Of a DNA stretch of 64,000 nucleotides, positions 2,776 through 7,224 are shown in pieces. Made by a program: the position numbers and the translations under genes. Within the stretch, counting starts at the first letter, position 1. Each line of letters starts with the position of its first letter. Under the pieces are notes generated by a model. That model ran no database searches. It saw only the letters and a program-made list of their open reading frames with translations, and was not told the DNA's origin. Source of the DNA: Verrucomicrobiales bacterium (GTDB lineage: Bacteria > Verrucomicrobiota > Verrucomicrobiia > Verrucomicrobiales > V1-33); the NCBI GenBank assembly GCA_028293125.1, contig JAQGPJ010000038.1, forward strand, positions 1-64,000. Reading direction: 5' to 3'.

Positions 2776-3735
2776 CTATTTATCCCATTCCGCAGCCACT
2801 TGGTTCAGCAGTTCCGTGGGCACCGCGCCATCAAAGGTCACCACCCGGTAGCGCAGGCGCAGCGGCTCCCCGGCTTTCACCGTCACCGGGCCCGGCGCGG
2901 TGATGCAGGGATTCAGCATCCCGATACCGGTCACGATATGCCAGAGCGTCTTTGGATTGCCGGGATGATTCACAATGGCGGCTCCGGCTTTGGTTCCGTC
3001 CTTCAGCGCCAGCTCCAGGGCATACCAGGGTTTGGAGGGCCAGTCGTTCTCCGGCTTCAGGTGGGAGGGTGGCGGCAGCTTCACAGGCCCGGCGGGGTCC
3101 GCGGCGGTGATGGCGGCATCCTTCCGGGTACGCACCACAAAGCCGCTGAAGGCGTGCCGCGGCAGGGTGACATCCGTGGCGGTTTCGAATCTCCAGTCCA
3201 AATCAAGAACCCTGCCGCCGCTGCGGAAGGTCACTGTGGTCCGCAGATTTTCCCTCACCAGCGCCGTGCCGCCGGCCAGCCAGTCATTTTTCACGGTGAA
3301 GGTGGCGCTGTCCCCGGTGGCGGAGACGGATTCCACGGCCGCATTGCGGATCATCCGGTTCTCCAAGGGCGCATATTGTCCCCAACCCCAGAAATCCGCC
3401 GCATCCGCAGCGTCCCGCACCTCCAGCCAGGCGCAGAAGGCCCCGCGATGGTGCGGATGGTCATCCGGTCCCACATCCGTCAGCACCACGCCGGACGGTG
3501 TGGTCAGGGGGTGGAAATAACAGGCGCTGGGGGAAATGGATTTTGAGTCTGTTGCCTCTGTTGGCTTCGTAAGCAGATACCGGAGGACTGTTTTCTTTTG
3601 GAACACCACCTCCACCGCTTTGCCGTCCGCCGTGATGGAGACATCGTCGGCGGAGGCGGACTGTGCGGATTCCGCGCGGGCCGGGGAAAAGCTTAGTGCC
3701 AGAAGGGCGAACGAAGGAATGAGGCGGTAAAACAT
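2776..3735 (-). CDS. Secreted DUF6807 (PmoA-like) family protein
   Basis: A protein of 319 residues from the ATG at 3735, which begins a clean signal peptide (MFYRLIP... ending SPARA). A GTG eight codons upstream is possible but spoils the signal. The diagnostic motif DHPHHRG followed by a Trp-rich stretch (DFWGWGQ) is typical of DUF6807, often labelled 'PmoA family' although unrelated to methane monooxygenase activity. Such proteins are frequent next to sugar-utilisation and oxidoreductase genes in Planctomycetes, Verrucomicrobia and Bacteroidetes, and probably bind or act on carbohydrate. A second member lies at 36669-37703. Confidence 0.85.
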   Translation of the reverse strand: MFYRLIPSFALLALSFSPARAESAQSASADDVSITADGKAVEVVFQKKTVLRYLLTKPTEATDSKSISPSACYFHPLTTPSGVVLTDVGPDDHPHHRGAFCAWLEVRDAADAADFWGWGQYAPLENRMIRNAAVESVSATGDSATFTVKNDWLAGGTALVRENLRTTVTFRSGGRVLDLDWRFETATDVTLPRHAFSGFVVRTRKDAAITAADPAGPVKLPPPSHLKPENDWPSKPWYALELALKDGTKAGAAIVNHPGNPKTLWHIVTGIGMLNPCITAPGPVTVKAGEPLRLRYRVVTFDGAVPTELLNQVAAEWDK

Positions 3736-3866
3736 GGCGGCGGAAGGGTGGGGCTGCACAGCGGCGGTGATGAATGACCGTCAACCTACCAAACGCTGCG
3801 GCCTGCACCGGGGTATCGGCAAAATCACGGCTGTGCACGCCCCGCCGCCTCCTTGGACCGGATGAA

Positions 3867-6674
3867 CTATTCCGCCGGCAGCGGCTCCTTGTATTCCACC
3901 GACTCCACAAAATTGAAGTTCCCTTTGGCCACAGCCAGCGGGCTCAGATCCACGTTCAGTTTGCCCCGGTTCATCAGCTCCACAGACTCCATGATGCGCT
4001 TGGCGATGGGCGCGCTGGTGCTGCCGCCGGCTTTTCCGTTGGCAACCAAAATGGCAAAGGCAAAGCGGGGTTTTTCAAATGGTGCGAATCCGATGAACCA
4101 CGTATGGTTGTCGCCGATCCACTGCTTGCTTCCGGGCTTTACGCGCCAAGCCTGTGCGGTTCCGGTCTTGCCAGCCATGGTTATAAGGGAGCTGCGGGCT
4201 AGCTTGCCGGTGGCCCCCTCATCATTGACCGTTTTCCACATGCCCTCCCGTATGGCTTCCAATGTCTCGGCGGGAGTGCCTTCGGCCAAGAGGTCATGTT
4301 CCAATTCAGCAGTGGGCGACTGCCATTCGCCTTTTACCAGACTTTTGCTGACAATGTGCTGCTTCCAGATTTTTCCATCATTGGCCACCGCCGCCGCCAC
4401 CGTGGCCATCTGCAGGGGAGTGGCCTGCACCTCTCCCTGACCAATGGCGGCGTTGGCGGTTTTGGCGGAAGTCCAGGGTCCCCCGTTCTGTGTTGTCCAC
4501 CAGGCAGGCGAGGGCATGAAACTGGTGTTTATACTCTGATCCAGACCGGAGTTGGAGGGCAGTCCTATTCCGAGTTTTCCCGCCACCGTCACGATTGAAT
4601 CAATCCCCGCGGCATTCCCCGCCTGATAGAACCAGCAGTTGCACGAGCATTTCAGGGCGTCGCTCAGTCCCAGGGTGCCATGCGGGGCGACATGCTGCTT
4701 CACCGTCCAGCAGGCAAACGGCCGTCCGCCATAGGTCACTGTGCCGGAACAGTTGAAGCTTTTGCGCCATTGGTCGGAATCCCCGGCTGCGATGGATGTG
4801 ACCAGTTTAAAGGTTGAGCCAGGTGGTCTGCCGGCCAGAGCCCGATTCATCAGCGGCTGCGTGGCGTCGCTGTTCAGTTCGCTCCAGTCGGATTGCTCCC
4901 CGAAAGGCACCATCTGGTTGGGATCGAAATCCGGCACACTGGCCATGGCGAGGATGTCCCCGTTGGCCACATCCAGCACCACCGCCGCCCCGCGTCCAAT
5001 GCCGGCGTCCCGCAGGGCATTCTCGCTGATCCGCTGAATGCGCGCATCCAAGGTCAGCGCCGCGGCGGGTTGGGCTTTGCCATCAGAGGCAGGAACTGCC
5101 TGAAGAGCGTCATCCAAAGTTTTTTCCACTCCAGAAAGGACCTTGGTTTGAACAGTTTTGCTCTTCTCCGCACGGCTCCCGGCCTTGCTCCGGTTTTGAG
5201 TGGTTTCCTCCCTGCGGTTCAGCGCCGCATATCCCAAAACATGGCTGGCTGAGGCGCCAAGCGGGTATTGCCGGATTTCGTTGGCCCCAGTTTCACCAGC
5301 GTCCGGCAAATCCTTGCGGATGGATTCCGCCAGGACTACTCCATTCCGGTCTGTAATGGTTCCGCGCATCACCGGCACCGCGGCGTTCACCGCAGGTGCA
5401 GCCGTTTCCGGTGCTTGATTGGATGACGCGTCAGGGCGCGGCGCGGGGCTGTCCTCAGGCTTGAGAGTGGACTCGGCAGGCTGGGACTTTTTGGAATTCG
5501 TAGTTTGGGCAGGTGGATCCGTGGAAGCTTGGGTAAATGGAAGGGGAGTCTGACTTTCCGCGCGCTGCGGCACCAGCAGGAAAGGTGCCGCCGCCGCCAT
5601 CAGCAGCAAAGGAAGCACCGCCGCGGCCTGCACCCGCTGGGGCGGGCGGCCCGGCTCCAGCAGGCGCTGCACGCGGGCCAGAATCTGCCCGCCGCCCGCA
5701 GCCGGGGCCAGGGCGGCGGTATGCTGCAGCTGCAGTTCCGCCAGCCGGGCCAATGCCTGGGCTCCGGCGCGGCGGTTGCCGGTGATGCGCATGGCGGCAT
5801 CGTCGCAGGCCTGCTCGCGCTCGAAGCTCATGCGGCGGCTGACCCACCAGACCGCCGGGTGGAAGAAGAGGACCGTCTCCGCCAGGGATTGCAGCAGGCC
5901 TGTCAGAAAGTCCTGCCGCCGGAGGTGCGCGAACTCGTGGGCCAGCACAAAGTCCAGCTCCCTCGGCGAAAGCCCTGCCAGAGCAGAGGCCGGCAGCAGC
6001 AGCACCGGTCGCAGCACGCCCGCCACCGCCGGGGAGATCAGCCTCCCCGTGATTTTCACCAAAGGCGCGCGGCGCAGCCCGCAGTTCCGCGCCATCCGCT
6101 CCACCTGATTCAGCAGAGCCCCCGCCGCTCTCTCCGCGCGGTGAATCAGCCGGAAGGTTCCCCACAGCCCGCAGAGCCTCCAGACCCCCATCAGCGCCGC
6201 GCCGCCCAGCCACAGTCCGCCCAGCCAGTGCTGCCATAACGGAGCGGATGCTGTCTCCCGTTTGGAAGTCCTGCCATAAATGGCGGACTCATCCTCGATG
6301 AAGAGGCCTGTTCCGGGCCGCAAAGCCGGGTGTCCGGCCATGACGTCCAACTGTGGATTCTCCAAGCCTGACAAATCAGCACCGTCCGGGAAATCGGTCA
6401 CGGTCACCGCCTCCGGCAGCGTCAGGGTTCTGGGACCGGCATTCACCGGCACCGGCAGATACTGCCAAGTGATCACCGGAGCCGCCGCCATCAGCAGCAG
6501 GGCCACGCCGCAGAGCGCGTGCCGCAGCTCCGCCGTGCCCCGGCGGCAGATCAGCAGAAGCAACTGGAGTCCGGCCCCGATGGCCGCCCCCTGCCATAAA
6601 AAGTGCAGCGCGCACCAGCCAAGACGGTCGGTCAGGGACGCGGGTATGCTTGAAAACAAAGCGGTGAGGCTCAT
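3867..6674 (-). CDS. BlaR1/MecR1-like M56 sensor protease fused to a penicillin-binding transpeptidase
   Basis: A membrane protein of 935 residues that would sense beta-lactam or peptidoglycan stress and relieve repression by the BlaI protein encoded upstream. The N-terminal half has four likely membrane helices (about 18-44, 50-70, 150-175, 350-368) and the M56 zinc motif HEFAH at 246-250. A Pro/Ser/Thr-rich linker (about 372-433) follows. The C-terminal half is a PBP module: a dimerisation-like segment starting RGTITDRNG (437-445), the active-site tetrad STFK (620-623), SCN (677-679) and KTG (836-838). BlaR1 sensors are normally about 600 residues with a class D beta-lactamase-like domain. 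This one is much longer and looks like a full class B PBP. The start at 6674 (MSLTALF) was chosen because upstream codons in this frame are the shadow of blaI. It is 55 bases after the blaI stop, so it is probably co-transcribed. Confidence 0.9.
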   Translation of the reverse strand: MSLTALFSSIPASLTDRLGWCALHFLWQGAAIGAGLQLLLLICRRGTAELRHALCGVALLLMAAAPVITWQYLPVPVNAGPRTLTLPEAVTVTDFPDGADLSGLENPQLDVMAGHPALRPGTGLFIEDESAIYGRTSKRETASAPLWQHWLGGLWLGGAALMGVWRLCGLWGTFRLIHRAERAAGALLNQVERMARNCGLRRAPLVKITGRLISPAVAGVLRPVLLLPASALAGLSPRELDFVLAHEFAHLRRQDFLTGLLQSLAETVLFFHPAVWWVSRRMSFEREQACDDAAMRITGNRRAGAQALARLAELQLQHTAALAPAAGGGQILARVQRLLEPGRPPQRVQAAAVLPLLLMAAAAPFLLVPQRAESQTPLPFTQASTDPPAQTTNSKKSQPAESTLKPEDSPAPRPDASSNQAPETAAPAVNAAVPVMRGTITDRNGVVLAESIRKDLPDAGETGANEIRQYPLGASASHVLGYAALNRREETTQNRSKAGSRAEKSKTVQTKVLSGVEKTLDDALQAVPASDGKAQPAAALTLDARIQRISENALRDAGIGRGAAVVLDVANGDILAMASVPDFDPNQMVPFGEQSDWSELNSDATQPLMNRALAGRPPGSTFKLVTSIAAGDSDQWRKSFNCSGTVTYGGRPFACWTVKQHVAPHGTLGLSDALKCSCNCWFYQAGNAAGIDSIVTVAGKLGIGLPSNSGLDQSINTSFMPSPAWWTTQNGGPWTSAKTANAAIGQGEVQATPLQMATVAAAVANDGKIWKQHIVSKSLVKGEWQSPTAELEHDLLAEGTPAETLEAIREGMWKTVNDEGATGKLARSSLITMAGKTGTAQAWRVKPGSKQWIGDNHTWFIGFAPFEKPRFAFAILVANGKAGGSTSAPIAKRIMESVELMNRGKLNVDLSPLAVAKGNFNFVESVEYKEPLPAE

Positions 6675-6729: not shown

Positions 6730-7125
6730 TCAGTCCCCGCGCTCCAAGGCGTCCAGCGTGCGGCGGATTTCAGAGATCTCCTCCGGCGTGACCTTGCCGG
6801 AGCCCAGCGCCTGCTGCACCAGCGCCTGGGTGGACCCGGCGAACAGCCGCTGCACCAGATCCTTGACCATGGACCGCTGCATCTTCTCCGGCGGCGCGGC
6901 GGCGCGGTAAATGTGGGTGCGGGCGGACTCATCGCGCCGGACCAGCCCCTTCTCGGTCATGATCTGGAGGAACTTCAGGACGGTGGTGTAAACCTGCGGT
7001 TTACGGCGGCTCAGGTCCTCATGCACCTCCCTCACCGTGGCCTGCCCCTTGTCCCAGAGGACCCGCAGGATGGTGAGCTCGGCATCGGTCGGTCGCAGCG
7101 GGGAAGTCGTTTTTTTGGCGGACAT
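6730..7125 (-). CDS. blaI: BlaI/MecI family transcriptional repressor
   Basis: A winged-helix repressor of 131 residues. The N-terminal part (about residues 8-75) contains LRPTDAELTILRVLW and the recognition region REVHEDLSRRKPQVYTT, both characteristic of BlaI/MecI/CopY. The C-terminal part is the dimerisation helix pair (VQRLFAG..., EEISEIRRTLDALE). BlaI is cleaved when the membrane protease is activated. The start at 7125 (MSAKK) is preferred over the ATG at 7146, because a good promoter -10 box lies at 7132-7137 and places the transcript start at or next to this ATG, giving a leaderless mRNA. The ATG at 7146 would lie inside the operator. It heads an operon with the M56-PBP gene. Confidence 0.93.
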   Translation of the reverse strand: MSAKKTTSPLRPTDAELTILRVLWDKGQATVREVHEDLSRRKPQVYTTVLKFLQIMTEKGLVRRDESARTHIYRAAAPPEKMQRSMVKDLVQRLFAGSTQALVQQALGSGKVTPEEISEIRRTLDALERGD

Positions 7126-7131
7126 GCCGTG

Positions 7132-7159
7132 ATCATACGAAGTCATTCGTATTGATCAA
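7132..7159 (-). promoter_or_regulatory. blaI promoter, predicted leaderless
   Basis: On the minus strand TTGATC (complement of 7154-7159) and TATGAT (complement of 7132-7137) form -35 and -10 boxes separated by 16 bases. The ATG at 7125 begins seven bases after the -10 box, so transcription should begin at the start codon itself. No Shine-Dalgarno sequence is present before it, which agrees with a leaderless message. Confidence 0.65.
7137..7150. promoter_or_regulatory. Predicted BlaI operator 1 (ACGAA-N4-TTCGT)
   Basis: A perfect dyad ACGAA-GTCA-TTCGT, extended to ATACGAA/TTCGTAT at 7135-7152. It fills the spacer between the -35 and -10 boxes and overlaps the -10, a position where a bound repressor would block polymerase. 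Assignment to BlaI is by position and repetition. Confidence 0.65.
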
Positions 7160-7172
7160 CGAAAACTTTCGT
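7159..7172. promoter_or_regulatory. Predicted BlaI operator 2 (ACGAA-N4-TTCGT)
   Basis: A second perfect dyad, ACGAA-AACT-TTCGT, with the same half-sites and spacer as operator 1. It begins 22 bases from it (about two helical turns, so on the same face of the DNA) and abuts the -35 box. Paired operators are usual for bla and mec control regions. Confidence 0.65.
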
Positions 7173-7224
7173 GGATACGCGCAAAAAGAATCCAGCCACC
7201 GCTGATGCCGCCTGCTTACTCGGG

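Follow-up and report, generated by a model that had tools for sequence, protein, structure and literature searches.

The 64,000-nucleotide stretch of Verrucomicrobiales DNA analyzed here, referred to as the window, encodes a protein in which an M56 protease of the BlaR1 kind is fused to a penicillin-binding protein (PBP) module of the PBP2 type. BlaR1-like proteins with such a PBP2 sensor are recurrent in Verrucomicrobiales and were not found described; no published account of an M56-PBP2 fusion was found in the open-access literature searched. The PBP2 module is usually dead in the fusions of related species, which suggests that these bacteria employ a PBP2 pocket to sense the cell wall or an antibiotic. 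The window protein is probably a membrane receptor of the BlaR1 type in which a captured and trimmed PBP2 paralogue acts as the sensor, with its own operon as the visible output. The features of this operon are listed in Table 1.

Table 1. Features of the blaI-fusion operon, in window coordinates
Feature	Position	Strand	Residues	Remark
M56-PBP2 fusion gene	3867..6674	(-)	935 aa ORF	same architecture in G001 and G002
HEFAH zinc motif, M56 protease	5925..5939	(-)	246-250	
Transmembrane helix 4	5574..5630	(-)	349-367	
EL1, predicted extracellular loop	6249..6440	(-)	79-142 (64 residues)	disordered in model
Pro/Thr/Ser-rich flexible linker	5376..5573	(-)	368-433	pLDDT <50 over most
Shortened class B PBP pedestal	5070..5375	(-)	434-535	Pfam, motif spacing and model
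Transpeptidase domain	3987..4991	(-)	562-896	Pfam, model and Foldseek
STFK	4806..4817	(-)	620-623	
SCN	4638..4646	(-)	677-679	
KTG	4161..4169	(-)	836-838	
Predicted PBP2-type zinc site	4641..4751	(-)	C642, C655, H665, C678	comparison with A. baumannii PBP2 (PMC9974482)
BlaI/MecI-type repressor gene	6730..7125	(-)		PF03965, E 3.8e-28
BlaI-type operator-like dyad 1	7136..7151			TACGAA-N4-TTCGTA; sequence scan
BlaI-type operator-like dyad 2	7158..7173			ACGAA-N4-TTCGT; 22 bp from dyad 1

The fusion protein was analyzed for its domain content. The length and the HEFAH protease given in the original prediction agree with the translation of the open reading frame and with a Pfam match to Peptidase_M56 (PF05569, residues 150-320, E 1.7e-26). 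The complete Transpeptidase profile (PF00905, 1-299 of 299) is matched at residues 562-896 with an E value of 3.1e-57, and the STFK, SCN and KTG motifs are intact, as had been claimed. Four long hydrophobic helices were located in the model of the fusion (residues 12-42, 48-72, 146-179 and 349-367), and AlphaFold predicts the PBP part with confidence (pLDDT 87.5, pTM 0.90). Besides the genome of the window (G000, 6.48 Mb), the same fusion is present in two other species of the genus (G001 and G002) with an identity of 53-56%. The fusion is thus real, as its recurrence rules out an assembly chimera or a chance fusion.

The best family for the C-terminal module is PBP2/MrdA (TIGR03423, E 1.7e-101), although the score of 340.6 bits is below the PBP2 equivalog cut-off of 455. 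The closest sequences in the PDB belong to PBP2 crystal structures (8yjx, 7kis, 8zpc and 7zg8), and the top Foldseek matches of the PBP model are PBP2 of Yersinia, Acinetobacter, Campylobacter, Pseudomonas and E. coli, with which the model aligns along its length. The match to blaR1_generic reaches 74.7 bits against a cut-off of 400, with its best stretch within the M56 part. Since NCBIfam, PDB and Foldseek all give PBP2 for the C-terminus, a class D-like sensor is ruled out, in agreement with the class B PBP of the original prediction. The assumption of a full class B PBP holds for the fusion itself and for the class, but not for its completeness. The spacing between the RGxIxDR and RxYP motifs is 29 residues in the fusion versus 139 in the genome's own PBP2 from the mre operon, so that about 110 residues of pedestal are missing relative to the latter. 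Of the suggested dimerisation segment only a remnant was located, with a partial PBP_dimer match (PF03717) at residues 464-526 that covers positions 104-160 of 180 of the profile in its best stretch. The membrane helix of PBP2 is absent, and helix 4 of the M56 part together with the disordered linker is found instead. The pedestal of PBP2 touches RodA and MreC (PMC9974482), and the head/anchor part that forms this docking face is mostly missing from the fusion. The canonical elongasome PBP2 is encoded by a separate gene (L043, G000:C37) near mreC and mreB. Based on the short pedestal, the absent helix and this second gene, the PBP2 part of the fusion is an additional, trimmed copy encoded apart from the elongasome operon and not a full PBP2. 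The short pedestal does not by itself exclude activity, because structures of such class B PBPs have been solved (Atopobium 4jbf, Eggerthella 4mnr, M. tuberculosis PbpA). Judged from its motifs, the window protein may also be a working transpeptidase.

The protease site of BlaR1 is formed by H201, H205, D210, E242, D246 and R294 (PMC9834060). In an alignment these correspond to H246, H250, D255, E287, D291 and R334 of the fusion, and all six are identical in 27 of 27 fusions as well as in 85 of 85 other M56 proteins. The HExxH zinc motif, which includes E247 of the window protein, is likewise kept in every one of the 27 fusions, and solved BlaR1 is matched directly by sequence (E 4.5e-4). A nearly invariant tyrosine of M56 proteins, which from the alignment is probably equivalent to Tyr261 of BlaR1, has given way to Gly in two and to Ala in one of the three fusions known from the window's genus; the window protein harbors Gly304 at this position (5763-5765). 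This replacement could weaken the protease in the genus. The genus concerned is also the one in which the fused PBP keeps its catalytic motifs.

The blaI gene is located upstream of the fusion gene on the same strand, separated by a gap of 55 bp. A longer version of its open reading frame, beginning at 7146, would run into the operator. The start of the G002 orthologue corresponds to 7125, which is likely the start of blaI. The tandem dyads upstream of blaI are also present in G001, G002 and G015, and weaker copies occur in G030. In the whole genome of the window the exact motif is confined to the blaI-fusion operon. One match with a single mismatch lies elsewhere, inside a glycosyltransferase-like ORF, and allowing up to two mismatches yields 27 matches, less than the 105 of a reversed-pattern control. 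With one mismatch allowed, the fusion operon is the sole site of the motif in G001 and G002. The search for a regulon in these three genomes, which covered assembled promoters and sites differing by up to two bases in G000 and by up to one in G001 and G002, revealed no operator beyond this operon and no beta-lactamase, PBP2a or other resistance gene under its control. Because the motif is confined to the fusion operon in all three genomes, the system appears to control itself alone. The type-B systems of G292 and G281 (L086, L087) carry a different operator-like dyad upstream of blaI, approximately GCGTTAA-N4-TTAACGC. Downstream of the fusion gene the window contains a DUF6807 gene (2776-3759(-)), and a similar-looking ORF is located downstream of the G001 fusion (L036:1-1403(-)) at another distance.

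A search profile built from ten fusions identified at least 27 full-span fusions and one damaged copy in four families among 387 genomes of the order. In a sample of 388 genomes of the phylum, fusions were seen in this order only. Two candidates per genome were scored in both searches, so that the fusion counts are lower bounds. With six candidates per genome scored, no fusion was detected in Planctomycetota (sample of 149 genomes) or in Acidobacteriota (sample of 149 genomes). Among the best 80 M56 loci listed in a scan of 84,980 species there was one such fusion, that of Verrucomicrobium sp. BvORR034 (G030). The absence from the Planctomycetota and Acidobacteriota samples, together with the literature search, is in line with the expectation that the fusion is not routine.

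Several related arrangements were observed. In G051 a stand-alone, dead PBP2 with a signal-peptide-like start lies beside a displaced blaI fragment (L096:2803-4368(+) and 4314-4982(+)), and this pair is apparently a split copy of the fusion. The type-B fusions of family f4 (L040:4137-7577(+), L041:822-4319(+) and their kin) continue for about 350 residues beyond the PBP module, and no Pfam match was found in this extension. The genome of the window encodes a further M56 protein of 1579 aa with a PSCyt2/DUF1549 domain after M56 (G000:C43, L049:3773-8512(+)). In other phyla, one M56 protein ends in a polysaccharide-deacetylase-like domain (L100:4956-7055(+)) and another in TPR and carboxypeptidase-regulatory-like domains (L107:1556-5026(+)). 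As these last two end in other domains, M56 seems to be combined with a variety of sensor modules.

The PBP tree joins the window's fusion and those of its two congeners to the stand-alone PBP2s of the same family (97/93; 100/97) and the f4 fusions to the PBP2s of f4 (93/90), while the fusions of G502 and G029 fall in a second PBP paralogue clade (100/100). The M56 domains form two types, separated at 98 in the M56 tree. A single origin of all fusions is disfavoured by the PBP clades and the two M56 types, although one origin for the main fusion set is compatible with the AU tests (p 0.08 and 0.105). Judged by these trees, PBP2 was likely captured by M56 repeatedly.

The catalytic residues of the fused PBPs are poorly conserved. 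Ser and Lys of the SxxK motif are both kept in 8 of 28 fusions; the remaining 20 lack at least one of them, whereas all 25 stand-alone PBP2s keep both (Fisher p 1.6e-8, with rows that are not independent), and the losses require at least six changes on the tree. Only the window's genus (3/3) and G502 retain the full set of three motifs. The predicted zinc-site residues, compared with the site of A. baumannii PBP2 (PMC9974482), are kept in 26-28 of the 28 fusions. As the protease is retained while Ser or Lys is lost in most members, catalysis is not the property under selection across the family. Fold, zinc site and protease are thus preserved and catalysis is given up, a pattern that would be expected of a sensory pseudoenzyme. 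In the window's genus acylation may serve for sensing, but it cannot be the general trigger, because most relatives lack the nucleophile. Acylation is impossible in these dead relatives, which therefore must sense something other than an acylating ligand, unless they are broken receptors. This strengthens the earlier suggestion that the sensor reports more than antibiotic, insofar as the dead relatives work.

The architecture, the catalytic and zinc motifs, the gene pair and the operator-like dyads restricted to this operon, all read from the sequence, are consistent with signalling by analogy to BlaR1. Four membrane helices would carry the M56 zinc protease facing the cytoplasm, and the PBP2 module would be placed in the periplasm, hung on the flexible linker. 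A ligand at the PBP2 active site, which might be a beta-lactam acylating Ser620 or else a stem peptide or precursor of peptidoglycan, would move the module with respect to EL1 and the membrane and thereby switch on the protease. The active protease would cleave BlaI, whose presumed binding to the two tandem operators would be lost, and the blaI-fusion operon would be induced. The visible output would thus be more receptor and with it more PBP2-like protein. In BlaR1, the beta-lactam displaces EL1 from its place in the cleft of the sensor (PMC9834060); in the model of the fusion EL1 is disordered, which speaks neither for nor against a place in the PBP cleft. Sensing by PBP domains has precedents in BlaR1 and in PbpP of B. 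thuringiensis, which senses beta-lactams for sigma-P and whose S301A mutant still activates the pathway when overexpressed (PMC8092216).

Three other readings of the PBP module were weighed. It is quite conceivable, if short of probable, that the module is a non-covalent binder of stem peptides, lipid II or a partner protein in the whole family, the window protein included. Catalysis and acylation would then be dispensable and the window's genus would simply not yet have decayed. The loss of Ser or Lys in fusions and not in stand-alone PBP2s, together with the kept zinc site and HExxH, points in this direction. However, all motif residues are kept in three species of the genus that are only 53-56% identical, which suggests that they are still needed there. 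A plain beta-lactam sensor, with ordinary BlaR1 function, another penicillin-binding module and unrecognised resistance genes reached via other sites, would account for the combination of M56, BlaI and an intact serine penicillin-binding fold. This reading is unlikely, given that the sole operator with up to one mismatch outside the operon lies inside an ORF and that looser matches stay below the control.

It is more doubtful still that receptor and enzyme are merged as in a combined MecR1 and PBP2a, so that a supplementary transpeptidase induces itself when PBP2 is inhibited. The complete active-site motifs of the window protein, its grouping with the family's own PBP2, the location of the only operators found at its own operon and the solved short-pedestal PBPs would fit such an inducible enzyme. 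However, it has neither the PBP2 membrane helix nor most of the pedestal head/anchor, through which PBP2 contacts RodA and MreC (PMC9974482), and the related fusions are mostly dead. Returning to the receptor with a captured PBP2 sensor, a more specific version is put forward tentatively. The M56-PBP2 proteins might form a distinct class of cell-wall sensors that arose more than once by capture of the host's own PBP2 and that read non-covalent occupancy of the pocket by a precursor or stem peptide. Catalysis would be free to decay and feedback would act on the own operon alone; the window protein would represent the intact form, which may also cross-link. Little is known in bacteria about direct sensing of the state of PBP2-driven wall synthesis, as opposed to sensing of antibiotic. 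The fusions link a PBP2 module and a transcriptional switch in one chain, and intact and dead versions both occur in nature. Their comparison would tell acylation and substrate sensing apart in receptors of the BlaR1 type, which is a general question for beta-lactam resistance signalling.

With the BlaR1/MecR1 and BlaI/MecI systems of S. aureus and B. licheniformis the fusion shares the M56 gluzincin with its catalytic residues, the predicted four-helix topology with a C-terminal serine penicillin-binding module, and the adjoining BlaI-type repressor gene with dyad operators. The sensor differs, as a class B PBP2 module of about 500 aa is found in place of a class D-like domain of about 255 aa. 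The bla and mec operators control a beta-lactamase or PBP2a gene, whereas none was found under the operator of the fusion. Unlike BlaR1/MecR1, many relatives of the fusion have a dead sensor site, and the nearly invariant tyrosine is replaced in the window's genus. With PBP2 (MrdA, the elongasome class B PBP) it shares the full transpeptidase domain, the three motifs, the predicted zinc site, the RGxIxDRNG and RxYP pedestal motifs and the grouping in the tree, but it differs in its shorter pedestal, its anchoring by M56 helix 4, its location outside the mre operon and its score below the equivalog cut-off. An Acidobacteriota protein (L104, Pyrinomonadaceae) resembles the fusion in having M56 followed by PF00905 in one chain, but is 699 aa long, has no pedestal match and shows about 23% identity to the PBP part. 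In the PbpP/sigma-P system of Bacillus thuringiensis a PBP senses beta-lactams and sets off the proteolysis of a transcription regulator, similar to what is proposed here for the fusion, but PbpP is separate from its protease and the regulator is an anti-sigma factor (PMC8092216).
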